Shown here piece after piece: positions 587 to 9,022 of a DNA stretch of 10,470 bases; positions within the stretch are counted from its first letter, which is position 1; each line of letters opens with the position of its first letter. The notes beneath the pieces were generated by a model. That model saw nothing but the letters and a program-made list of their open reading frames with translations, did no database searches and was not told the origin of the DNA. Source of the stretch: Candidatus Uhrbacteria bacterium RIFCSPLOWO2_02_FULL_49_11 (GTDB lineage Bacteria > Patescibacteriota > Patescibacteriia > 2-02-FULL-49-11); NCBI GenBank assembly GCA_001791465.1, contig MGER01000045.1, forward strand, positions 207 to 10,676, read 5' to 3'. The position numbers and the translations under genes were made by a program.

Positions 587-1693
587 TCATATTTTGGTAG
601 TGCGGGATATGCTTAAACAAACGCCCAACGCAGCAAGGATACTGAGTACCGCGGTGCCCCCGAAACTTACCAGAGGCAAAGGAAGACCGGTAAGCGGCAC
701 AAGCCCTATCATCGCGGCCATATTCACAAATGACTGCACCCCAATCCAAAAAATAACACCCAACACAAAGTAACGACTAAATTCATCCGGCACCCTTGAG
801 GCTATATCAAATAATCTATAAATCAATATCCCTAAAAGAATTATTAACCCTACAGACACTATAAATCCGCCTTCTTCGCCAATAACCGCAAAAATCGAAT
901 CGCCCGCAGATTCTGGCAAATAACTAAATTTTTGGCGCGATTTACCGAGCCCCAAACCCCGCCAGCCTCCAGAGCCGATTGCAATCATTGATTGATTGAT
1001 ATGATACCCGACTCCCATGGGGTCCTTTTCGGGACTTAAGAAAACCGCGATCCTATCTTTACGATAAGGTGAAATAAGGATGGCAGAACCAATAAGCATT
1101 ACTGCAATAACCGCCAATGAAATTATATGGGTATATTTGGCTCCTGCGCCATAAAACACTCCCAGCGACATTATGATGATTATGGCTACCGTGCCTGGAT
1201 CTGGTTGCAGGAATACCAATCCCGCAAGCAATCCCAAAAGGGTCAAAAAAGGCAAAAGGCCCCAGAGCGTGCTCGTAAGATGTGCTTTACGTTGTTTGAA
1301 CCATACACATATGTAGAGGAGAAATGTAAATTTAGCAATTTCTGACGGCTGTAAGGTGCTTACTCCCACATTGATCCAGCTTTTCGCGTTATTTATGGTG
1401 ATGCCAATGCCGGGGATGAACACTACTACGAGCAATACTAACGTCACCGCAAATGCGGGAAAGGCTATTTTTTGCCAAAGCGCAGGAGGAATTTTTACGC
1501 ATATCAACAGCGCGATCAGTCCCACGCCGACGTGAACAAGCTGCTGTTTGGTGAAATAGTAAGTGTCGCCAAATCGCTCAAAACCTAACACATTTGAAGC
1601 AGAGGCGAGCATCACGAGGCCAAAGGCTGTCAGTAATAATATGAGTCCTAAGAGTTTGTAATCAACGGCATGTACAGTCGGAGAGAGAGGCAT
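587..1693 (-). CDS. ftsW: FtsW/RodA-type SEDS peptidoglycan glycosyltransferase
   Basis: The protein has 368 residues, usual for the SEDS family of multi-spanning membrane proteins that polymerise lipid II during division (FtsW) or elongation (RodA). Family motifs seen are SWINVGVSTLQPSEIAKF at 105-122, LQPDPGTVAIIIIM at 162-175, the extracellular-loop stretch GSGGWRGLGLGKSRQK at 240-255, LPESAGDSIFAVIGEEGG at 259-276 containing the expected catalytic Asp (D265), and a C-terminal LVPLTGLPLPLVSFGGT at 331-347. About ten hydrophobic segments are evident. I prefer FtsW over RodA because the gene lies between mraY and murG. The ATG at 1693 (MPLSPTVHA) is chosen over an in-frame TTG at 1726, because the extra residues would be encoded by a repeat in the spacer. 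No ribosome binding site is obvious. Confidence 0.93.
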   Translation of the reverse strand: MPLSPTVHAVDYKLLGLILLLTAFGLVMLASASNVLGFERFGDTYYFTKQQLVHVGVGLIALLICVKIPPALWQKIAFPAFAVTLVLLVVVFIPGIGITINNAKSWINVGVSTLQPSEIAKFTFLLYICVWFKQRKAHLTSTLWGLLPFLTLLGLLAGLVFLQPDPGTVAIIIIMSLGVFYGAGAKYTHIISLAVIAVMLIGSAILISPYRKDRIAVFLSPEKDPMGVGYHINQSMIAIGSGGWRGLGLGKSRQKFSYLPESAGDSIFAVIGEEGGFIVSVGLIILLGILIYRLFDIASRVPDEFSRYFVLGVIFWIGVQSFVNMAAMIGLVPLTGLPLPLVSFGGTAVLSILAALGVCLSISRTTKI

Positions 1694-1701
1694 AACTAAT
1701 A

Positions 1702-1792
1702 AGTAAATCCCAATTTCAAAATCCAAATGTCAAATAATCAATTTTGGGAATTGGGACTTGGAGCTTTATTGGGATTTGGTCATTGGGGTTTT
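1702..1792. repeat. AT-rich spacer repeat between mraY and ftsW
   Basis: The spacer is made of the words AATCCCAATTTC, CCAAATGTCAAA and GGGATTTGG that recur in other spacers of this window. It holds a long imperfect inverted repeat: CCCAATTTCAAAAT (1709-1722) pairs with ATTTTGGGAATTGGG (1741-1755). The repeat is transcribed between mraY and ftsW. No T-run follows, so termination is not clearly indicated. Confidence 0.6.
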
Positions 1793-2911
1793 TCAATGCA
1801 ATGCAACCCATACCCCAATCATCACTGCGATGGCATTCAGCACCCAGGCGCGCATCACAATCTTTTCTTCGCTCCAGCCGCGTGCTTCAAAATGATGATG
1901 AAGAGGGGCAAGAATTAATATCCGTCTGTTAAGGATGTGCTTCCCAATTGATTGGATAATGACACTTGCGAGCTCTATAAAAAAAATAAATCCGAACAAT
2001 GGCAGCACCGCAATGCGGTTTTGCGCGATACTCATGACTGCCAACAACGCGCCCAGGCCCAAAGATCCCACGTCTCCCATCTGAAAACGTGCAGGTTTAA
2101 TATTAAAATAAGTATACGTAAAAAGACTTCCTATCACCATGGCGTTCAGAATGGCAAATGACACGTTCCCCTGTATCCATGAGAGCATAAGCAGGCCGCC
2201 AAACGCAGTGAGCAGCGTGCCTCCCGCCAAACCGTCAAGCCCGTCGGCAATATTAACCGCATTAGCCGTTGCCATAACTGTAAGTATGATAAGGGGAACA
2301 AGAAAAATCCCCAACGAAAGCTCTCCGCTCCATGGCAACCAAATAACTTTCCATTCAGGGCCAAGCTTTGCAAAAATCCACCATGCAGTAATTGTGCCTG
2401 CGATAAATTGAAACAGTATTTTTTCATGCGCTTGTATCCCCTTCCCCGGATACGAGCCCATATGAAAAAAGAAGCGCTTATAGGCAACCCATGGAATGGA
2501 AATGCGGTAATACCATCTCATCCACCAATCACGATGGACTCGCGCAAGAGTCATCGTGCGCTCAAGTGATCGCATAAGCCGCTTGCTTCCATAAATATTC
2601 AATATGTCATCTATGCCTCCCAGCGCGCTTGAGAGAAGCATCACGCCAATAGGAACCCACGTGAAGCGCTGATTCCAGTTAAATAAAAAACTTAACACCG
2701 CCACGGTAACTACCACGAGCAGCCCTCCCATGATAGGAGTCCCGTGTTTTTCCTGGCGTCCGGGAAGCGGTATGGTAAACCTGTGGTCGCCGGTACGCAA
2801 TATTTTCCCGCGATACAGGATCGTGGTGAGCATAGGCGCCCACGCAAACGCAACGACGCAAGCCAAGATTAAGAAACCCAAACTCGTCACGATGATAGAA
2901 AACGATACCAT
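1793..2911 (-). CDS. mraY: MraY, phospho-N-acetylmuramoyl-pentapeptide transferase
   Basis: This integral membrane enzyme transfers phospho-MurNAc-pentapeptide from UDP to undecaprenyl phosphate, giving lipid I. The protein has about 372 residues. It shows GTPIMGG at 57-63, the paired aspartates GGIDD at 98-102, NAVNIADGLDGLAGG at 217-231, the nucleotide-site MGDVGSLGLG at 277-286, and HHHFEARGWSEEKIVMRAW at 337-355. About ten hydrophobic segments are visible. Between the DD pair and the next conserved helix (GKGIQAHEKILFQ) lies an aromatic and basic stretch (about 106-155) that is much longer than in E. coli or Aquifex MraY. The Lys usual three residues after DD is Asn here. The ATG at 2911 starts a normal hydrophobic N-terminus; an upstream TTG at 2926 would add only five residues. 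No ribosome binding site is apparent. Confidence 0.95.
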   Translation of the reverse strand: MVSFSIIVTSLGFLILACVVAFAWAPMLTTILYRGKILRTGDHRFTIPLPGRQEKHGTPIMGGLLVVVTVAVLSFLFNWNQRFTWVPIGVMLLSSALGGIDDILNIYGSKRLMRSLERTMTLARVHRDWWMRWYYRISIPWVAYKRFFFHMGSYPGKGIQAHEKILFQFIAGTITAWWIFAKLGPEWKVIWLPWSGELSLGIFLVPLIILTVMATANAVNIADGLDGLAGGTLLTAFGGLLMLSWIQGNVSFAILNAMVIGSLFTYTYFNIKPARFQMGDVGSLGLGALLAVMSIAQNRIAVLPLFGFIFFIELASVIIQSIGKHILNRRILILAPLHHHFEARGWSEEKIVMRAWVLNAIAVMIGVWVALH

Positions 2912-2947
2912 AAAGTAACAATACAATCTATATCTAAGAAGTCTTCA

Positions 2948-3025
2948 AATCCAAATGTCAAAATCCAAATGTCAAATAAAATCTCAAGTTCAAATGCCCA
3001 ATATTACATTTGACATTGGGGTTTT
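2948..3025. repeat. 78-bp AT-rich repeat, copy A
   Basis: This stretch upstream of mraY aligns without gaps to 7888-7965, with 6 differences in 78 positions by my hand comparison. It starts with two copies of AATCCAAATGTCAAA and ends in TTTGACATTGGGG, so its ends are partly inverted (AATGTCAAA against TTTGACATT). The stretch is non-coding. In copy B the repeat runs straight into a second repeat half; here it is interrupted by the 3026-3127 insert. Confidence 0.8.
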
Positions 3026-3127
3026 GCCTGCCCGCCATATGCATTTCCATGGGAACGGTTTGTATGTTAAGAAAAATACGAACATGAAGTACGTTATCGT
3101 TCATTGTTGACAGGCTTTGGCAGGCGG
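3026..3127. mobile_element. 102-bp insert with short inverted ends (possible MITE-like or REP-like element)
   Basis: The insert begins GCCTGCCCGCC and ends GGCAGGCGG, giving GCCTGCC/GGCAGGC inverted ends. It separates two repeat halves (2948-3025 and 3128-3169) that are directly adjacent at 7888-8006, so that locus acts as an empty site for comparison. It contains no reading frame of note and no transposase. A target-site duplication is not obvious. The boundaries are approximate because the flanks are low-complexity. Confidence 0.45.
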
Positions 3128-3169
3128 GGATTTTTATTTGAACTTTGAACTTTGGATTTGGGATTTCTC
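3128..3169. repeat. Second repeat half overlapping the 3' end of the NlpC/P60-like gene
   Basis: This 42-base stretch matches 7966-8006 closely: GGATTTTTATTTGAACTTTG here against GGATTTTATTTGAGCTTTG there, then a shared TTTGGATTTGGGATTT. It encodes, on the minus strand, the C-terminal SQIQSSKFK and the TAA stop (3134-3136) of the NlpC/P60-like protein. Confidence 0.7.
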
Positions 3170-3916
3170 GTTAATTGCATTAAGCCTGAGTATTCCATTC
3201 TTTTCTCTTTCTTCAAGCCATCCTTCGTACGCAGGTTTTTGATCTGGCAACGATTCCTGCCAATGTTGCTCATAGAGGCTGGCTTCTGGTTTAAGAATAA
3301 CTACTCTCCCTCGCTGTACCCCTGAAGCGTTGCCAAAACGGTCGCTTGAATGGATAAATGAGAAAGAAATAAGATTTTCCATATCTTTTTCAACTTCATC
3401 TATAAGGAGCACATGTTTCCCCCCGCGCGTGCGTATTAAATCGCCAGGCTTAACGTCAGTAAGCATTACACTTTGTGCATTTTCCGGGGAGGTAAGCAGT
3501 GTAACATCAATATTCTGAAAGGGGCGAAAGCGCAATAATAATTTTCGTTTTAATGAACGTTGTGTGCGCAATAATGATCGTCCAAGAGCGCTATGGGATG
3601 TTTCCTTCACCCACGGATCAAGAATGTGGGAGACTAATCCCGAACAGTCTATGCCTATGCGTTCGTCAGTCATCAACTGCCGAATTTCCTCTCGTGAAAG
3701 TTTAGCCAAGTCAATTTTCTTAATCAGCGCGCGTAATTTCAATTCTTCTACGATCTCTTCCGGCGATCCCTTGCCTGATTCAACTGCAGATGCTGCGCGC
3801 TTCCGTTTGTCTGCATTCATGTAATATGGAGATACCACATGCCGCCCAAGACCGAAATCGAGAGATTCATACGCATTCATTACCTTTTGGCACAATTCTG
3901 GCAGGGCGGACATCAT
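3134..3916 (-). CDS. NlpC/P60-like cysteine peptidase or amidase
   Basis: The protein has 260 residues. The NlpC/P60 (C40) fold is suggested by GIDCSGLVSHIL at 88-99, with catalytic Cys91, and by VKPGDLIRTRGGKHVLLIDEV at 155-175, with candidate catalytic His168; a third polar residue may be His189 in FIHSSD. Such enzymes cut gamma-D-Glu-DAP and related peptide bonds. There is no signal peptide or membrane segment, so it is predicted to act in the cytoplasm, not on the mature wall. The N-terminal 85 residues are helical and charged and not recognised. The start ATG at 3916 overlaps the ATP-grasp stop as ATGA, implying translational coupling; a second ATG follows immediately. The last residues (EKSQIQSSKFK) are encoded by the spacer repeat and are unlikely to be part of the fold. 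The exact substrate is unknown. Confidence 0.75.
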   Translation of the reverse strand: MMSALPELCQKVMNAYESLDFGLGRHVVSPYYMNADKRKRAASAVESGKGSPEEIVEELKLRALIKKIDLAKLSREEIRQLMTDERIGIDCSGLVSHILDPWVKETSHSALGRSLLRTQRSLKRKLLLRFRPFQNIDVTLLTSPENAQSVMLTDVKPGDLIRTRGGKHVLLIDEVEKDMENLISFSFIHSSDRFGNASGVQRGRVVILKPEASLYEQHWQESLPDQKPAYEGWLEEREKNGILRLNAINEKSQIQSSKFK

Positions 3917-5238
3917 ATTTCAACGTACAATTGTCTGCGAATATTTTTCATAACGTCTTGGTAATTTTTACCAAACGTGTCAACTATACCTTGTTTCGAC
4001 TGTATTCTCAAGAGTTCTCCGCCTGGCTTTACCTTATCAGCCTGAGAAATAGAAAATGCAAAGAATTCGCCCTTTTGTGTTTCAGCCACACTTGTCGCCT
4101 TCTCAATAAATTCAACCCCTTTTTCGCTTACTTTGTAGCGACCCGGCATAAATTCATTTTTTAACTGCACCGGACGATTCTCGATATTGCGGAAGAATAG
4201 TTGAATTCCATTATATTGTTCCGCAGGAACTCCTTCATTTTGAATTTTGAATTTTGAATTTTGATTAATTGCCGTGAGCGCCTTCATATGCCATTCCATC
4301 GTACTCACTTCTTTTTTCTCATTTTGTATTTGCGACTCCAGGCTCGCCGAAGCCGGTTGCCGTGCGTTGATTTCAATGAGGTATCCTGGATGGGCATCAT
4401 CATCTGCTGGCATGACAACATCAATGCCAAATAATCCTCTCCATCCGTCCTCTTTCATATAATAGCCAATCTCGGTAGCTATTTTTTTAACCTTGTTATG
4501 TATTCCATCGCTCACATTGCTCCAATCGTTACCAACTGTAGCAAACGGATTATTAGTAAGTTCGGGCTTTCCTGTGATCTGTTCGCTTGTCCGTCCACAG
4601 ATCACTTCATTCCCTATCACGCATGCATTAATCGTATACGCCTTCCCTGCTATATACCTTGAAATCTTTACTACTCGCCTTGGGAATCTCTCGACCTCAT
4701 TTTTCCATTCATACTCGTGGTAAATGCGTTTCGTTCCAGATCCCGTATGTCCAGTGTTGTATTGTAAAATAAAACCTTCCCCAAACTGATCTATTAATGT
4801 TCCAAAATCACATTGACACAGCTCACCAATAGTACTCATGGGAGTCGCTACTTCTATTAAAGCACTCTTTTCCTCCCTTAACCAAGCATATTGAGACATC
4901 TTGTTCTCAATCTTTCTAGATAATTCTACAGAAGGATTTAGAAGTCGCAGATCTAGCCTTTTACATTCTTCTTCAATCTGCCGAGAATTTTTAAATACGA
5001 CAATATGTGAAGGATTGTCTTTTGATAACTGCGTAATTACGTCCTGTACTTCTTTATTGCGCATTAAAGCAAGTGTTGATAATTTTTCTTGTCTACTTAT
5101 CACTACTAACCGATCGTTATGCTTATCCCTTACCGCTTCTGCCAATGGACTTGAGTTGGTAATAATATAATAATCGTCGATTGCCCCGAGCAGTCCGACC
5201 GCGCGTTCAACATCGCGTGTAATGTAGAAAAGCGTCAT
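3913..5238 (-). CDS. ATP-grasp ligase (carboxylate-amine/amide-forming type), substrate unknown
   Basis: The protein has 441 residues. A pre-ATP-grasp domain occupies about 1-105. The ATP-grasp domain runs from about 106 to 300, with the glycine-rich ATP loop FILQYNTGHTGSGTKRIY at 156-173, the adenine/strand region KISRYIAGKAYTINACVIGN at 191-210, and the metal-binding GIDVVM (Asp273) and GYLIEINARQPAS (Glu289, Asn291). A C-terminal domain of about 115 residues follows. These enzymes activate a carboxylate as an acyl phosphate and join it to an amine or similar nucleophile. The motifs are closer to the general carboxylate-amine ligase group than to a canonical D-Ala-D-Ala ligase. The start ATG at 5238 is one base after the upstream TAG, with AGGGA about six bases before it. 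The gene is coupled to the downstream hydrolase by ATGA. A heptamer repeat at 4238-4264 encodes QNSKFKIQN between the two domains. Confidence 0.8.
   Translation of the reverse strand: MTLFYITRDVERAVGLLGAIDDYYIITNSSPLAEAVRDKHNDRLVVISRQEKLSTLALMRNKEVQDVITQLSKDNPSHIVVFKNSRQIEEECKRLDLRLLNPSVELSRKIENKMSQYAWLREEKSALIEVATPMSTIGELCQCDFGTLIDQFGEGFILQYNTGHTGSGTKRIYHEYEWKNEVERFPRRVVKISRYIAGKAYTINACVIGNEVICGRTSEQITGKPELTNNPFATVGNDWSNVSDGIHNKVKKIATEIGYYMKEDGWRGLFGIDVVMPADDDAHPGYLIEINARQPASASLESQIQNEKKEVSTMEWHMKALTAINQNSKFKIQNEGVPAEQYNGIQLFFRNIENRPVQLKNEFMPGRYKVSEKGVEFIEKATSVAETQKGEFFAFSISQADKVKPGGELLRIQSKQGIVDTFGKNYQDVMKNIRRQLYVEI
4238..4264. repeat. Heptanucleotide tandem repeat inside the ATP-grasp gene
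   Basis: The unit TTTTGAA (AAAATTC-type on the coding strand) occurs 3.9 times. It encodes residues around 325-334 (NQNSKFKIQN). The unit length is not a multiple of three, so gain or loss of one copy would shift the frame before the C-terminal domain. It shares its word content with the spacer repeats. Confidence 0.75.
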
Positions 5239-5239
5239 A

Positions 5240-6151
5240 CTATTTCCCTGTAAAAATCAATGCAATCGGTTCCTTTGCGCGAAAGCCCTTTGCACAAGCT
5301 TTGTGTAAACCCGCGAGTGACATAGCGCTTTCCGGGCTCACGTTTTCATGCAGAACTTCGGCCAACTTTTTCATCGCAGATGTAATTTCTTCATCAGACA
5401 CAATCCATCCTGACCCATGACTTTCTTTAACCGCTTTCACCACCTGATCTTTACGATTTGCGACGCGATCCACAATGGCGGAAGCAATGGATACTTTCGA
5501 CGGCGTGAAATCTTGATCAAACTCTCTCGCGATAGGATAAACTTTTGTGGTTTGCACAATGTGCAATGACGGCAGGGACGGGTCGCGACCTGTCCCTACA
5601 ATATTTCTAAATCCTTCCCATAATCCCGCCAACATTGTCCCAGAAGATACAGCCATAAATACACTCCCTCCTTTGCCTTCAGTCTGTTCTACTAATTCCC
5701 TTGCTAACTCATCATATCCTTCAAGCAAGTAATCGTCCTTCGACCCTCGCAGTAAACGTATATGAGCCTTGCGGCTAAATTGACTAGCCTCGCTTCTTGC
5801 CAATTTTGACCAATGAATGATTACATTGTCCGTCTTATATTCGTTTAATCTGTCTTTTTTTTCTTGGGAAATCGTCGGAGGGGAAAAAAGATGGAATTGA
5901 ACCTGTGGATGGTGGCGGGCATAATACGCCGCAGATATTGCAAAGTTACCCGAAGAACTCAAGCAAAACGCCTTCTCCCCTTTCATCACTAATTTATCGA
6001 CATAGGGAAAAAGCGCCCTGTCTTTATGGGAACCGGAAGGGTTCAAATCTTCTCGTTTTATATAAATATCCAAACCAACTCCTTCGACGATAGGCGATGG
6101 CGCTCGTATAACTGGGGTTTGCATATGACTAAGTTGCATAACAGCGTACAT
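5240..6151 (-). CDS. Threonine synthase-like PLP enzyme (fold type II)
   Basis: The protein has 303 residues and belongs to the tryptophan synthase beta superfamily (threonine synthase, cysteine synthase, threonine/DAP ammonia-lyase). It shows IKREDLNPSGSHKDR at 31-45, with Lys43 as the Schiff-base lysine, SSSGNFAISAAYYA at 65-78 (the substrate/PLP Asn loop), a phosphate-binding loop SSGTMLAG at 169-176, VSPESAMSLAG at 271-281, and a terminal FTGK. It is shorter than typical threonine synthases and stops directly after the TG motif. Residues about 185-195 (VGTGRDPSLPS) are encoded by a 28-bp palindrome. Direct coupling to an ATP-grasp ligase and a peptidase suggests that it makes or modifies the amino acid used by them. 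The catalysed reaction cannot be told from motifs. The ATG at 6151 is taken; Met5 and Met10 are alternatives. Confidence 0.8.
   Translation of the reverse strand: MYAVMQLSHMQTPVIRAPSPIVEGVGLDIYIKREDLNPSGSHKDRALFPYVDKLVMKGEKAFCLSSSGNFAISAAYYARHHPQVQFHLFSPPTISQEKKDRLNEYKTDNVIIHWSKLARSEASQFSRKAHIRLLRGSKDDYLLEGYDELARELVEQTEGKGGSVFMAVSSGTMLAGLWEGFRNIVGTGRDPSLPSLHIVQTTKVYPIAREFDQDFTPSKVSIASAIVDRVANRKDQVVKAVKESHGSGWIVSDEEITSAMKKLAEVLHENVSPESAMSLAGLHKACAKGFRAKEPIALIFTGK
5572..5599. repeat. 28-bp near-perfect palindrome within the PLP enzyme gene
   Basis: The palindrome is centred on GGTCGCGACC (5581-5590) and has outer arms GCAGGGAC and GTCCCTAC. Only two of the 14 pairs are non-Watson-Crick (a G-T pair and a C-A mismatch). 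It is unlike the AT-richer surroundings and keeps the reading frame, encoding VGTGRDPSLP. It resembles short dispersed palindromic repeats (GTAGGGACAGGT-type) that I associate with several bacterial groups. Confidence 0.7.
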
Positions 6152-6163
6152 TCAGGATATACT
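6134..6163 (+). promoter_or_regulatory. Candidate promoter for the LysW-like gene
   Basis: TTGCAT (6134-6139) and TATACT (6158-6163) are separated by 18 bases, giving a start near 6170 and a leader of about 30 bases before the ATG at 6199. The -35 box lies inside the start of the divergent PLP gene, so the two genes would share this short region. Inferred by eye only. Confidence 0.35.
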
Positions 6164-6198
6164 TATAAAAAGTAATTACACATTATCTTATTATCTAT

Positions 6199-6369
6199 AT
6201 GGATTACCATACCATGTGTCCTGAATGTAAAAATGAGCTTAACCTCGAGCGCGATGCTTTAGTAAAAGGCGATGTGGTTGAATGCGAACAGTGCGGCATG
6301 ACGCTTGAAGTGACCGAAATTGACGCGCAAGGAAATTTTAATACGGTCATCGTGGAAGAGGAGAAATAG
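6199..6369 (+). CDS. LysW-like zinc-ribbon mini-protein without the usual Glu tail
   Basis: The protein has 56 residues. It contains CPEC (Cys7, Cys10) and CEQC (Cys29, Cys32), which would bind one zinc ion, with spacing and surrounding sequence (NELNLERDALVKGDVVEC, then LEV) very like the LysW/ArgW amino-group carrier proteins. In those carriers a C-terminal EDWGE tail is joined through its terminal Glu to the substrate amino acid by an ATP-grasp ligase (LysX/ArgX). Here the protein instead ends VIVEEEK, so it is either an unusual carrier or a zinc-ribbon protein of other function. It is the only plus-strand gene within the cell-wall cluster, divergent from the PLP/ATP-grasp operon and convergent to the Mur ligase. 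An in-frame ATG at 6214 would give the start MCPEC and is a fair alternative. No clear ribosome binding site precedes either start. Confidence 0.8.
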   Translation: MDYHTMCPECKNELNLERDALVKGDVVECEQCGMTLEVTEIDAQGNFNTVIVEEEK

Positions 6370-6380
6370 CCCCTACGGGG

Positions 6381-6436
6381 AATGTCAAAATCCAAATGTC
6401 AAATGTCAATTTGAAATTGGAAATTTGAACTTTGGC
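6381..6436. repeat. Spacer repeat with inverted arms between convergent genes (possible bidirectional terminator)
   Basis: The stretch is built from the same words as the other spacers (GTCAAAATCCAAATGTCAAA). CCAAATGTCAAAT (6392-6404) pairs imperfectly with ATTTGAACTTTGG (6423-6435) around an inner CAATTTGAAATTG. A short CCCC-TAC-GGGG hairpin lies just before it (6370-6380). Its place between the convergent ends of the LysW-like and Mur ligase genes makes a terminator role plausible, but there is no clean T-run. Confidence 0.45.
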
Positions 6437-6437
6437 A

Positions 6438-7847
6438 TTACAGACACTTAAGTGTCTGTTCGATCATCCCTCTGAATCCATGCGAACCAAGAAAAAGTAT
6501 GCAGTCGCCCGGTTGGGCGCTTTTTTGTAACTTTTGGATAACTTGGATATCATCATCGATATAAAGCACTTCCTTTATATCAGGATTCGATGAATCGATA
6601 ATTTGCGCAAGCTGTGCGCCATCCAGCCTTACCTCTGTATATTCATTATGTTTTGTTGCTGATAAATGCGGCACGATAACGATATTCGCGGAGTTAAACG
6701 CATCTCTATACGACGGCGCTGACGAACGAAGCCGATTCCCCACATTCGGCTCAAAAACGACTATGACGCGCCCGAGAGAGAAAATTTGCTTCACCGCATC
6801 AATAGTGGATTTTGCCTTGCTCGGTGAGTGGGCGAAGTCATCTATAACGCTCACCTCATTCACCACGCCCCTTATTTCAAGCCGCCTGCGCACTCCCTGA
6901 AACGAGGCGAGCGCTTGCATGATGGCAGCTTGATCAATGCCGGTGGCGCGAGCAAGCGCAACTGCGCCGGCAAAGTGATCGAACGCGATACTGCCCAAGA
7001 GAGGCACATCCACCGGACCTATTGTTTCATTTGAAGGCCCGTAAAATGTCATTCTGGTGGCATTTTTTTGATACGTTACCTCTGTGCTCCAATCGGCTCC
7101 GCTCCCCATCCTCCCGTACCATGCCACCGGTGCAGATGCCTTTTTGAGAACATCGCGCACATGAGGGCGATCCAAGGCCGCGCAGATAAGGCCGTCAAGG
7201 GGCACTGATTTAACTAACTGGGCAAACACGTCAATGTACGATTCTTCCGTCGTATAGATATCTGCGTGATCCCACTGCACGCCGGTTAAAAGCAAAAATC
7301 GTGGTTTATAAAATGAAAATTTAGGAACAGGATTCCATCGGCATGCCGGATACTCGTCACCTTCTACAATACTCCATGATGAATCATTCGACCGCACGCT
7401 GTCCGGGAAATTGCGCACAATGCCGCCTGCCATGAAGGATGGGCATCTTCCCGCGCATTCCCAAATCCATGCCAGGAGGGCGGTCGTTATGGTTTTTCCA
7501 TAACTTCCCGCAACCACGATAGAATGAGATTTTATTACGTATTCTCGTAATGCCTCGGGGTAAGACTGATAAGGCACGCCGCGTTCCCTTATCGCGCAAA
7601 ATTCAGGATTGAGAAGACTAATATAATTCCCTACGACTGCCGTATCGGGATTCCCTATCCGCTCAGGGTGAAATCCTACATAATAATCAATCTTATTCTG
7701 TTTCAAATAATCTGATAGTGGAGGGTAAATACCTTTGTCAGAACCTGTCACGCGCCATCCCCTATCCTTAAACATTTTCGCGACTGGCGCCATGGCAGTG
7801 CCGCATATTCCTATAAAATGAATGTGTCTTTTTGCGATCATAAGCAT
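6438..7847 (-). CDS. mpl: Mpl/MurC-type Mur ligase (UDP-MurNAc-L-alanine or UDP-MurNAc-tripeptide ligase)
   Basis: The protein has 469 residues and the three-domain layout of Mur ligases. The N-terminal nucleotide-sugar domain starts HIHFIGICGTAMAPVAKMF (8-26) and has VTGSDKGIYPPLSDYL (33-48), closest to Mpl. The ATP loop is AGSYGKTITT (113-122), with Tyr in place of the usual His. The central domain shows VEGDEYPACRW (161-171) and VQWDHADIY (190-198). The C-terminal domain has RRRLEIRGVVNEVSVIDDFAHSPSK (320-344), VVFEPN (363-368) and GSHGFRGM (454-461). Mpl normally joins recycled L-Ala-D-Glu-DAP to UDP-MurNAc, while MurC adds L-Ala. In a reduced genome this protein could fill the MurC role; the motifs favour the Mpl subfamily. 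The ATG at 7847 is supported by AGAGGA (7856-7861) eight bases upstream, one of the few clear ribosome binding sites here. Confidence 0.85.
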   Translation of the reverse strand: MLMIAKRHIHFIGICGTAMAPVAKMFKDRGWRVTGSDKGIYPPLSDYLKQNKIDYYVGFHPERIGNPDTAVVGNYISLLNPEFCAIRERGVPYQSYPEALREYVIKSHSIVVAGSYGKTITTALLAWIWECAGRCPSFMAGGIVRNFPDSVRSNDSSWSIVEGDEYPACRWNPVPKFSFYKPRFLLLTGVQWDHADIYTTEESYIDVFAQLVKSVPLDGLICAALDRPHVRDVLKKASAPVAWYGRMGSGADWSTEVTYQKNATRMTFYGPSNETIGPVDVPLLGSIAFDHFAGAVALARATGIDQAAIMQALASFQGVRRRLEIRGVVNEVSVIDDFAHSPSKAKSTIDAVKQIFSLGRVIVVFEPNVGNRLRSSAPSYRDAFNSANIVIVPHLSATKHNEYTEVRLDGAQLAQIIDSSNPDIKEVLYIDDDIQVIQKLQKSAQPGDCILFLGSHGFRGMIEQTLKCL

Positions 7848-7861: not shown

Positions 7862-7887
7862 CGAAAATTCTCTACATTATTTGCTTA

Positions 7888-7965
7888 AATCCCAATGTCA
7901 AAATCCAAATATCAAATAAAATCTCAAGTTCAAATGTCCAATATCAAATTTGACATTGGGATTTT
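7888..7965. repeat. 78-bp AT-rich repeat, copy B
   Basis: This is the partner of 2948-3025, with 6 differences in 78 by hand alignment. Its ends form a perfect 16-base inverted repeat, AAATCCCAATGTCAAA (7887-7902) and TTTGACATTGGGATTT (7949-7964), around a 46-base centre. It lies in the spacer between the transferase-like gene and the Mur ligase gene and runs directly into the second half at 7966-8006. Confidence 0.8.
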
Positions 7966-8006
7966 GGATTTTATTTGAGCTTTGAAATTTGGATTTGGGA
8001 TTTTTC
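7966..8006. repeat. Second repeat half overlapping the 3' end of the transferase-like gene
   Basis: This is homologous to 3128-3169. On the minus strand it encodes SQIQISKLK and the TAA stop (7971-7973) of the upstream protein, at the same place in the repeat where the NlpC/P60-like protein also stops. Confidence 0.7.
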
Positions 8007-8660
8007 AGGTTTCCCCTGCTGCCATTTTTTACCATTAAACCACTCCACCCCCTTAAACTGAAACTTATAGAGTGAGCGTTTATCTTGGATACTTCCCAGA
8101 TACACATAGTCCATGTTTTTTTCTTGCGCCCAAAGGATCGCCCTGAGCATCATCGCCATTCCCAAAGAGGGAAGCGCCAACGCGCGTGCGCGTAATAAGT
8201 GGTAAAAGGGATACGCATAATGGAGCATGTGCGCCGATGAAAAAAGAAGACAATAACCTAGAGGACGCTCTTCTTGCTCCCATTGATAGATAAAAACGCC
8301 ATTCATGCTCTCATGGGGCGAGACGAACAGGGTCTTTATTTTCTGGGCGCTCATGGCGCGCGCGCCAGCTTTCGCTTTGTAAAAATCAACTGCAATTTTT
8401 CCAATTGTCCAATGATAATTTGCGTAAGGCAAGGCTTTATAATGAACAGCAAGGGAAGAATAATTTTTCAAAATTCGACGATTCTCGCTTGATAACTTAA
8501 AGGAACCAATGGGAACTCTCACCGAGCGCACCTGTCGCATACTATGCGGCCCCAGCCTCGTAAACACATAACCTTCGTCATATTTCTGTTCAAGGGAATC
8601 GCTCAATGTAGGATCAAGAGCAATTTCGTTAAAAAAATGATATGGCGCGTGGTTGCTCAT
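7971..8660 (-). CDS. Aminoacyl-tRNA-protein transferase-like protein (ATE/Bpt family, GNAT fold)
   Basis: The protein has 229 residues. The C-terminal part reads like arginyl/leucyl-tRNA-protein transferases: LGMAMMLRAILWAQEKNMDY, then VYLGSIQDKRSLYKFQFKG and VEWFNGKKW (about 167-213), matching the family's YLGYWI...KMxYKxxFxPxExxxxGxW. The N-terminal part also aligns by eye: LEQKYDEGYVF, PHSMRQVRS, VRVPIGSF, then RRILKN (23-66), where the family has PHCxxCxxC followed by VRVPV. The cysteines of that metal or cluster site are absent. Family members transfer an amino acid from tRNA to a protein N-terminus; the GNAT fold is shared with FemX-type peptidoglycan transferases. Its place before a Mur ligase gene leaves a cell-wall role open. 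The ATG at 8660 is fixed by an ATGA overlap with the upstream gene; a GTG at 8696 is less likely. The C-terminal tail comes from a spacer repeat. Confidence 0.65.
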   Translation of the reverse strand: MSNHAPYHFFNEIALDPTLSDSLEQKYDEGYVFTRLGPHSMRQVRSVRVPIGSFKLSSENRRILKNYSSLAVHYKALPYANYHWTIGKIAVDFYKAKAGARAMSAQKIKTLFVSPHESMNGVFIYQWEQEERPLGYCLLFSSAHMLHYAYPFYHLLRARALALPSLGMAMMLRAILWAQEKNMDYVYLGSIQDKRSLYKFQFKGVEWFNGKKWQQGKPEKSQIQISKLK

Positions 8661-9022
8661 AATACGAACATTGAGAGATAAATAGTTATGGCGCACAAAA
8701 ACGCGTTCAATACCGACGTGAGCGTAAGCAGAGCCGCCGCAAGCCTTGGTTCATTGCGATAGAGCATTCTTCCCACACCGCCATTGAATACGGTCATGAG
8801 AGTGCCTGATGCCGCAAGCACGTAAAAATACCAAAAAGGACCTACAAAATCTATTCCGAAATACACGGTGACATGCAACGGGATCGGATTTAAAGAAGGC
8901 TCAATAGTAAAATACACATAAATCCACGTTGCCGCATTCAAAACAAACGAAATCGCCACATTCCATATAACCCACGGAAGCCGGTGGTATAAATCCTTTC
9001 GTAACGAGGGGAAAGGCATCAT
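8657..9022 (-). CDS. Small three-helix membrane protein, function unknown
   Basis: The protein has 121 residues. Hydrophobic segments at about 17-40, 57-79 and 94-119 predict three membrane helices, with a basic N-terminus (SLRKDLYHR) and a short basic loop between helices 2 and 3 (GRMLYRNEPR). The loop before helix 2 carries IPLHVTVYFGIDFVGPFWYF (47-66); a similar LHYNIYFGIDLxGP pattern is one I recall in uncharacterised CPR membrane proteins, which is recollection and not a search result. It overlaps the next gene by ATGA, so the two are probably co-translated. The start ATG at 9022 is followed at once by another ATG; no ribosome binding site is visible. No function is assigned. Confidence 0.75.
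   Translation of the reverse strand: MMPFPSLRKDLYHRLPWVIWNVAISFVLNAATWIYVYFTIEPSLNPIPLHVTVYFGIDFVGPFWYFYVLAASGTLMTVFNGGVGRMLYRNEPRLAAALLTLTSVLNAFLCAITIYLSMFVL

Follow-up and report, generated by a model that had tools for sequence, protein, structure and literature searches.

The stretch of DNA considered here, termed the window throughout, comprises 10,470 nucleotides of Candidatus Uhrbacteria bacterium RIFCSPLOWO2_02_FULL_49_11 (assembly GCA_001791465.1, contig MGER01000045.1, positions 207 to 10,676 of the forward strand), a member of the Patescibacteria whose draft genome amounts to 0.97 Mb in 78 contigs and is 73% complete. Read from right to left, its minus strand encodes a small protein, an ATE-like transferase, a Mur ligase, a pyridoxal phosphate (PLP) enzyme, an ATP-grasp ligase, an NlpC/P60-like peptidase, MraY and FtsW (Table 1). 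A gene for a LysW-like protein of 56 amino acids is interposed on the plus strand between the Mur ligase and PLP enzyme genes, its start lying 47 bases from that of the divergent PLP gene. A preliminary description of the sequence had placed the PLP enzyme, ATP-grasp ligase and NlpC/P60-like hydrolase between the Mur ligase and mraY, with a one-base spacing, an ATGA overlap and a divergent LysW-like mini-protein. All of this is borne out: coordinates and profile matches agree with the layout, a single base (5239) separates the PLP and ATP-grasp genes, the ATP-grasp and NlpC-like genes overlap by ATGA at 3913-3916, and the mini-protein matches PF21344. Beyond that description's view lay the absence of MurD, the affinity of the Mur ligase with Mpl and not MurC, and an invariant lysine at the C-terminus of the mini-protein. 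We consider it likely that, in Patescibacteria that are without MurC and MurD, residues 1 and 2 of the peptidoglycan stem peptide are built and loaded by this gene set, hereafter the module; comparison of sequences gives good support to an apparent replacement of these two enzymes in many of these tiny, uncultured bacteria.

MurD was scored with the NCBIfam model TIGR01087 (cut-off 211.95). Among 60 genomes of the class to which the source organism belongs, a MurD over the cut-off is present in none of the 36 with the ATP-grasp ligase and in all 24 without it, an exclusion with a Fisher probability of 2.8e-17, which is inflated by the relatedness of the genomes. The 36 are the stronger of 44 matches among 380 genomes, eight weak ones (81 bits or less) having been excluded, and they span seven families; the 24 controls span 24 other families. 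The PLP enzyme is distributed in the same manner, scoring at least 243 bits in 35 of the 36 and in none of the MurD genomes, where the best match reaches 123 bits. Nor does MurD exceed the cut-off in any of 42 named ATP-grasp genomes, Dojka-, Colwell- and Wolfebacteria included, a set of unstated completeness in which at least seven genomes duplicate members of the 36 (identical coordinates). In the source genome the best TIGR01087 score, 79.8 bits, is that of the Mpl-like ligase itself, and no protein reaches the MurD cut-off. When the Mur-ligase regions of 13 module genomes were read, MurE, MurF and the Mpl-like ligase were found, with FolC as well in five; neither MurC nor MurD was among the matches listed, outside which lay one additional weak match each in G199, G227 and G310. 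The MurD-type genomes G030 and G021 hold MurC, MurD, MurE and MurF. The specificity segment of MurE reads DPY in three of three non-module genomes and in seven of 12 other module genomes, is of VN type in five, and reads DPR in the window genome (L112), a distribution with no clear pattern.

The Mur ligase of the window scores 210 bits against E. coli Mpl and 144 bits against E. coli MurC. All 42 module ligases (the window, 40 named loci and G038) favour Mpl over MurC by score, and all 19 MurCs of MurD-type genomes favour MurC over Mpl; one locus (L171), whose fetched MurC region held no MurC, was dropped. In a phylogenetic tree, 27 of 27 sampled module ligases lie with E. coli Mpl on one side of a branch and the MurCs lie apart, with a Shimodaira-Hasegawa-like approximate likelihood ratio (SH-aLRT) support of 100. 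The best match to the window ligase in the PDB is 3hn7, the Mpl of P. arcticus (175 bits), followed by a MurC (155.6 bits). EPN replaces the QPH segment of MurC in all 42 module ligases; of the 19 MurCs from the candidate phyla radiation (CPR), 16 carry QPH and one HPH. With the curated MurC model TIGR01082 the window ligase attains 278 of the required 335 bits, and with the Mpl model TIGR01081 it attains 258 of 388.7 bits, sharing the EP of EPRSNT and not RSNT. Identification of the enzyme as MurC was therefore rejected on scores, tree and motif, and it is the sole ligase of MurC/Mpl type found in its incomplete genome.

According to the accessible text of PMC3060825, in H. influenzae MurC the amino acid is bound by His376 and Arg377, Glu402-Pro403 is specific to Mpl, and Mpl itself is a recycling enzyme that joins tri- to pentapeptides. 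By our own reading of the alignment, His376 and Arg377 would correspond to QPHR and Glu402-Pro403 to EP. MurE is kept in the module genomes read, and the peptide loaded by the Mpl-like ligase should therefore be a dipeptide. A further segment, DDxAHSP, is altered to D(C/A/T)HAPT(P/A) in the Mpl-like ligases of L035, L056, L057, L067, L103, L104 and L106, which possibly marks an additional shift in specificity.

A search with the ATP-grasp profile yielded 80 named loci, mostly from Magasanikbacteria and Taylorbacteria, with others from Dojka-, Colwell-, Wolfe- and Nomurabacteria. The co-occurrence across the CPR that the preliminary description had looked to as a check on its grouping is found in these: an ATP-grasp open reading frame (ORF) is present in 79 of the 80, and NlpC follows it immediately downstream in 68 loci, 64 of them with both genes on one strand. 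Where a mini-protein was located, it stands head-to-head with the PLP gene in 49 of 51 loci. At L095 no ATP-grasp ORF was called despite the match of this locus in the collection search, and its genome is counted in the 42. Among the 79, a PLP gene is found somewhere in the locus in 38, but immediately before the ATP-grasp gene on the same strand in only five, while in other classes it directly precedes the ATP-grasp gene in most module loci; the exact gene order of the window is not universal. The usual order in Magasanikbacteria is MurB (divergent), ATP-grasp, NlpC, MraY, ATE-like, Mur ligase, mini-protein, PLP. With the window counted, 81 loci, many of which end at contig ends, contain ATP-grasp (80), NlpC (71), MraY (58), the ATE-like transferase (47), a Mur ligase (44), PLP (39) and MurB (38); one of the 44 Mur ligases, at L058, is MurE/MurF, proteins which clustered with the Mur ligases and were removed from the ligase counts. 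When pairwise distances are compared for five pairs of genes, the correlations lie between 0.80 and 0.91, against 0.36 or less in shuffles, indicating that the genes descend together. The gene set is a conserved module of Patescibacteria.

Across the phylum sample, 58 of 379 genomes match the ATP-grasp profile. Outside the class, 36 matching and 24 non-matching genomes were scored for MurD, the controls in G422-G453 being taken as ATP-grasp-free from their absence among the 58. By neighbourhood, 20 of the 36 have the module (PLP or NlpC adjoining the ATP-grasp gene), and 15 of these have no MurD over the cut-off. A further 12 have an ATP-grasp gene without adjoining PLP, NlpC or mini-protein (G424, G442, G443, G477, G543, G711, G539, G561, G579, G465, G611 and G702), and four were never inspected in context: G538, G592 and G494 (with MurD) and G434 (without). 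MurD is kept in seven of the 12 partnerless genomes and not in five. Since such genomes often keep MurD, it is the module, and not an ATP-grasp relative alone, that predicts MurD loss. The five without MurD over the cut-off are G424, G711, G465, G611 and G702, and at L187, in G611, an Mpl-like ligase is encoded some genes away. In the 24 non-matching genomes MurD exceeds the cut-off in 19, G429 reaches 169.5 bits, and none is found over it in G426, G427, G439 and G449. These last four, with no ATP-grasp match and just one to three matches to the MurD model, perhaps have reduced peptidoglycan synthesis or none.

Gene order in other classes places the PLP and ATP-grasp genes where murD would be expected. 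The MurD-type genome G030 has the order mraY, (small ORF), murD, ftsW, murG, murC. In G455, G472 and G540 (L178, L180 and L184) the order is Mpl-like, NlpC, mraY, PLP, ATP-grasp, ftsW, murG, a mini-protein gene separating mraY from PLP in G455 and G472, with none detected in L184; in G717 it is Mpl-like, PLP, ATP-grasp, NlpC, mraY, (small ORF), ftsW, murG. The PLP and ATP-grasp genes can thus occupy the murD slot of the division and cell wall (dcw) cluster in other classes. In G455 the Mpl-like ligase is fused to NlpC in a protein of 695 amino acids (Mpl 2-444, NlpC 455-693). Relics of MurD occur near the module in 11 loci, Taylorbacteria among them (L035, L042, L050, L057, L068, L071, L079, L096, L109, L110 and L111); these keep the outer domains and miss catalytic segments of the middle domain, and have perhaps been retained as a binding subunit.

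The PLP enzyme carries K43 in 56 of 56 sequences and a conserved SSSGN loop. Its nearest PDB relatives are threonine synthase (118 bits) and aspartate racemase (76 bits), and it falls short of the curated ThrC models (TIGR00260, 79.6 of 167.1 bits; PRK08329, 118 of 358 bits). The ATP-grasp ligase has the full fold: its predicted model has a predicted local distance difference test (pLDDT) score of 91.7 and matches PurK, PurT, L-amino-acid ligase and PylC, and D273, E289 and N291, which we take to be the Mg ligands, are invariant in 33 sequences. At E 0.01 its library matches are PF02655 in Pfam and PRK06524 alone in NCBIfam, no LysX model matches in either, and its profile finds nothing among PDB sequences at 0.01. 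The possibility that it belongs to a known unrelated pathway had been raised beforehand; none is named in the libraries searched. Some of its relatives (P0061, P0062, P0096, P0114 and P0120) carry a PF00293 domain, presumably NUDIX. A role in place of Ddl was considered and rejected, ten of 25 module genomes retaining a PF07478 match above 160 bits. Ddl (PF07478) is weak or absent in 11 of the 25 (G106, G129, G199, G213, G219, G227, G270, G281, G299, G304 and G038), five of which were read, all with MurF; among non-module genomes, four of 13 are Ddl-poor.

The window copy of the NlpC-like protein has no Pfam match, while of the 34 members of its family, itself among them, 23 match PF00877 with an E of at most 0.01. 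Against PDB sequences the family profile recovered the catalytic motif alone (E 0.15 or worse), and it was fold comparison that settled the identity: the fold matches gamma-D-glutamyl-diamino acid endopeptidases, and the catalytic Cys and His residues are present. No obvious signal peptide is visible by eye, so that the peptidase is probably cytoplasmic.

For the mini-protein, any small CxxC...CxxCG frame lying no more than 1.5 kb from a gene of the module was sought, the tail being left unconstrained. Such a frame is present in 51 of 59 PLP-bearing loci. Of 54 frames, 53 end in lysine; the sole exception is antisense, and dropping it leaves 53 of 53. The tails of the 52 with a clear start are EGK (34), EEK (12), TEK (2), DEK (2), VQK (1) and VEK (1). 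Only C7, C10, C29, C32, G33 and K56 are invariant in 40 aligned members, so that the terminal lysine is the sole invariant residue outside the zinc ribbon. Since a single query gave only three matches, the alignment was used for the homologue search; the terminal residue is K in 73 of the 75 database relatives so obtained, and the other two are a classic LysW ending in EDWGE and a protein ending in D. The window copy exceeds the PF21344 cut-off of 27 bits for a LysW-type zinc ribbon and lies below the curated LysW cut-offs (TIGR01206, 27 of 53.2 bits; NF041070, 36.4 of 75 bits). An invariant C-terminal lysine in place of the glutamate of LysW gives the appearance of a carrier of reversed chemistry, which would present an amine, not a carboxyl, at its tip.

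The PLP enzyme and ATP-grasp ligase would, on our proposal, make a short peptide (Ala-Glu or something closely akin to it would be the simplest case), which the Mpl-like ligase would attach to uridine diphosphate N-acetylmuramic acid (UDP-MurNAc); MurE and MurF would then complete the stem, and MraY would take over. The preliminary description had suggested that the set makes an amino acid, joins it to a carrier or peptide and trims it, perhaps for a peptidoglycan stem. Its grouping and cell-wall role fit the present results, and the loading, processing and trimming steps are ones that we infer from sequence. More tentatively, a large part of the Patescibacteria may assemble stem residues 1 and 2 on a lysine-terminated carrier, which the ATP-grasp ligase would load, the PLP enzyme setting the stereochemistry or identity of residue 2, NlpC/P60 releasing the product and the Mpl-like enzyme ligating it. 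A tether can be drawn in finer detail, as a whole unlikely to be right at every step: the ATP-grasp ligase would attach glutamate, by its side-chain carboxyl, to the lysine at the end of the mini-protein, the PLP enzyme would epimerise or rebuild the tethered residue via its free amine, alanine would then be added, and NlpC/P60 would free the dipeptide for the Mpl-like ligase. The structural relatives of NlpC/P60 cut bonds between gamma-D-Glu and a diamino acid.

That the mini-protein serves as a zinc-ribbon regulator or scaffold and not as a carrier, the remaining steps proceeding with free intermediates, is a serious possibility short of an even chance. Its transcription divergently from the PLP gene would suit such a role, as would the position of the window copy below the LysW cut-offs and the matches of one to six of the 40 members to ten other NCBIfam families, mostly zinc ribbons. 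Against it, the final lysine is fixed in all 40 members and in 73 of the 75 relatives while the tails vary otherwise, and 38 of the 40 members match the LysW/ArgW carrier model NF041070 at E 0.001. The ATP-grasp ligase might instead be a direct stand-in for MurD, acting on UDP-MurNAc-L-Ala, with the Mpl-like ligase adding L-Ala as MurC does and the PLP enzyme supplying D-Glu in place of MurI. The mutual exclusion of MurD and the PLP/ATP-grasp pair, the position of that pair in the murD slot and the lower frequency of MurI-family matches in module genomes (5/36 against 15/24) would follow from this; yet the mini-protein and NlpC would be left without a role, the ligase lacks the QPH of MurC in every case and groups with Mpl, and candidate D-amino-acid transaminases occur in 11 of the 36 module genomes. 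We regard such a stand-in as improbable.

Salvage appears slightly more improbable again. Here NlpC/P60 would free L-Ala-D-Glu from host muropeptides that these organisms, probable epibionts, take up, and the Mpl-like ligase would reload it, leaving the PLP and ATP-grasp enzymes a side task such as modification. The recycling function of Mpl (PMC3060825, accessible text), the fold of the NlpC-like protein and its fusion to the Mpl-like ligase in one genome are all in keeping with this, but it is the PLP and ATP-grasp enzymes themselves that follow MurD absence, and they form the tightest pair in other classes. Lastly, the module might decorate the stem, for instance by adding a residue to the alpha-carboxyl of Glu or by forming a cross-bridge, MurD absence being a coincidence of descent. 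The genomes are indeed related, the ATP-grasp ligase descends with MraY, an ATE-like transferase lies nearby, and six genomes pair the module with a MurD-like protein whose P-loop is intact. Against this, no other MurD-type ligase was among the matches listed in the 13 genomes read, the exclusion repeats in most module genomes of other classes, and the MurD remnants found alongside the module are altered; decoration is very improbable.

The six MurD-like proteins adjoin the PLP and ATP-grasp genes and carry Y, W or G at the position of Ser415, where five MurDs from MurD-type genomes carry Ser. Five are over the cut-off, and the sixth, in G476, scores 200.7 bits. MurD Ala414 and Leu416 lie near D-Glu (PMC8788868, accessible text), and alignment index 416 would, by our own reading, correspond to Ser415 of this glutamate site.

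Several observations weigh against a replacement of MurC and MurD by the module. Five of the 20 outside-class module genomes (G440, G441, G504, G728 and G758) have a MurD-like protein over the cut-off beside the module. The 24 class controls were hand-picked, each at least 96% complete, and G343 is a single ATP-grasp genome without the PLP enzyme. The genomes are related, so the counts are not independent; and with the ATP-grasp ligase sharing the descent of MraY (distance correlation 0.91), MurD may have been lost on few occasions. In the ligase tree the branch of E. coli Mpl is long and its placement was flagged as unsure. EPN is not general: of five Mpl-like ligases in other classes, none of which has QPH, L198 has EPN, L192 has EPG, and L178, L180 and L184 have neither. 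With L-Ala-D-Glu the solved Mpl turns over slowly (1.4 per min at 0.25 mM, against a kcat of 260 per min for the tripeptide), as given in the accessible text of PMC3060825. NlpC is not directly downstream in 11 of the 79 named loci, and eight of the 59 PLP-bearing loci have no detected mini-protein. A match to the MurI or D-amino-acid transaminase families occurs in 15 of 36 module genomes and 16 of 24 others (p 0.07); genes for D-Glu supply do not tell the two groups apart, and leave it neither proven nor excluded that the PLP enzyme generates the D-centre or that residue 2 is another one.

Of described systems, MurD2/MurL of Xanthomonas and others is likewise an alternative early stem route, in which another ligase and an epimerase replace MurI and MurD (PMC8788868, accessible text). 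MurD2, however, is a MurD homologue acting on UDP-MurNAc-L-Ala, according to the same text, whereas the module ligase is a non-homologous ATP-grasp protein, and the module is also without MurC and has the Mpl-like ligase and mini-protein. A MurD homologue adding Glu was not seen, with none of the 36 genomes over the MurD cut-off, a comparison outside which lay MurL and the score of MurD2 on that model. LysW systems pair their carrier with a LysX/ArgX-type ATP-grasp ligase, an aminotransferase and a LysK-type hydrolase. As far as the accessible text of PMC10433800 goes, LysW carries substrates on the gamma-carboxyl of the C-terminal Glu in EDWGE, and LysW/ArgW resembles the module in its zinc-ribbon mini-protein of about 54 amino acids with a conserved charged C-terminus, co-encoded with an ATP-grasp ligase, a PLP enzyme and a peptidase-type hydrolase. 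The module differs in a carrier candidate that ends in Lys, in its cell-wall neighbours, and in having another ATP-grasp family, a fold-type II PLP enzyme and NlpC/P60. The analogy with LysW drawn beforehand therefore holds for the zinc ribbon (PF21344) and fails for the C-terminal Glu and for a LysX/ArgX-type ligase, an identification rejected here because no such model matches and the carrier tail differs.

The solved Mpl belongs to the same clade as the module ligase and shares with it the Ala-His and Glu-Pro of the Mpl-specific segments (PMC3060825, accessible text), but has EPRSNT where the module has EPN; the module enzyme is apparently an entry route upstream of MurE, for which a dipeptide would be expected rather than a recycled tripeptide. 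Canonical MurC and MurD occupy the same position in the pathway, between MurB and MurE, but were not found in the module genomes read and are apparently replaced there. The archaeal pseudomurein cluster also co-encodes Mur ligases, an ATP-grasp protein and a MraY-like enzyme (PMC11915815, accessible text); it is archaeal, with four Mur ligases, and PLP, LysW-like and NlpC partners are not mentioned in that text. The module may be an alternative early peptidoglycan route working like the LysW carrier system, and is a member of neither MurD2/MurL nor LysW. No paper describing this gene set was found in the open-licence literature without preprints, although this cannot prove that none exists.

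As a rule, MurC and MurD are regarded as essential steps in making the bacterial cell wall. A lineage-wide replacement by non-homologous enzymes, if true, would mean that Patescibacteria genomes have to be judged differently for their capacity to build a wall; one that lacks MurD could otherwise be mistaken for that of an organism with a defective or borrowed wall. It would also imply an unusual making of the first two stem residues, the second of which might itself be unusual. Lysine-ending relatives of LysW would represent a second chemistry for protein-tethered amino acids, and the synthesis of a cell-wall precursor peptide on a carrier protein would, to judge from the literature searched, be without precedent, as would a carrier ending in lysine.

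Table 1. Features of the window (positions count from its first nucleotide).
Feature	Positions	Strand	Basis
LysW-like zinc-ribbon mini-protein, candidate carrier with C-terminal Lys	6199..6369	+	PF21344 39.1 bits; 56 aa, tail ...EEEK
Intergenic 47 bp between mini-protein and PLP starts	6152..6198	.	Head-to-head in 49/51 loci
Fold-type II PLP enzyme, threonine-synthase-like	5240..6151	-	PALP 159 bits
ATP-grasp carboxylate-amine ligase	3913..5238	-	PF02655 28.2 bits, cut-off 23.2
NlpC/P60-like cysteine peptidase	3134..3916	-	Family PF00877 matches; fold
Mpl-like Mur ligase (putative peptide loader)	6438..7847	-	Scores, tree, EPN motif
MraY	1793..2926	-	TIGR00445 168 bits (below cut-off of 192); conserved neighbour
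FtsW	587..1726	-	TIGR02614 355 bits (above cut-off of 337.5)
ATE/Aat-like aminoacyl-tRNA transferase (GNAT)	7971..8696	-	Arginyltransferase models 46 bits, far under cut-offs
Small membrane protein (membrane nature by eye)	8657..9022	-	Present in 2/112 sources

The intergenic region between the mini-protein and PLP genes presumably houses putative promoters of both. An alternative start of the mini-protein is possible at an in-frame ATG at 6214. The ATE-like transferase is a recurrent neighbour of the module. A dispersed AT-rich repeat of 34-80 nucleotides, partly palindromic, occurs in the window at 1704-1737, 2946-3026, 3132-3169, 4234-4271, 6373-6442 and 7886-8006. The NlpC and ATE-like genes have near-identical tails owing to copies that reach into their 3' ends, and a weaker copy (66%) lies within the ATP-grasp gene, at its low-confidence loop.

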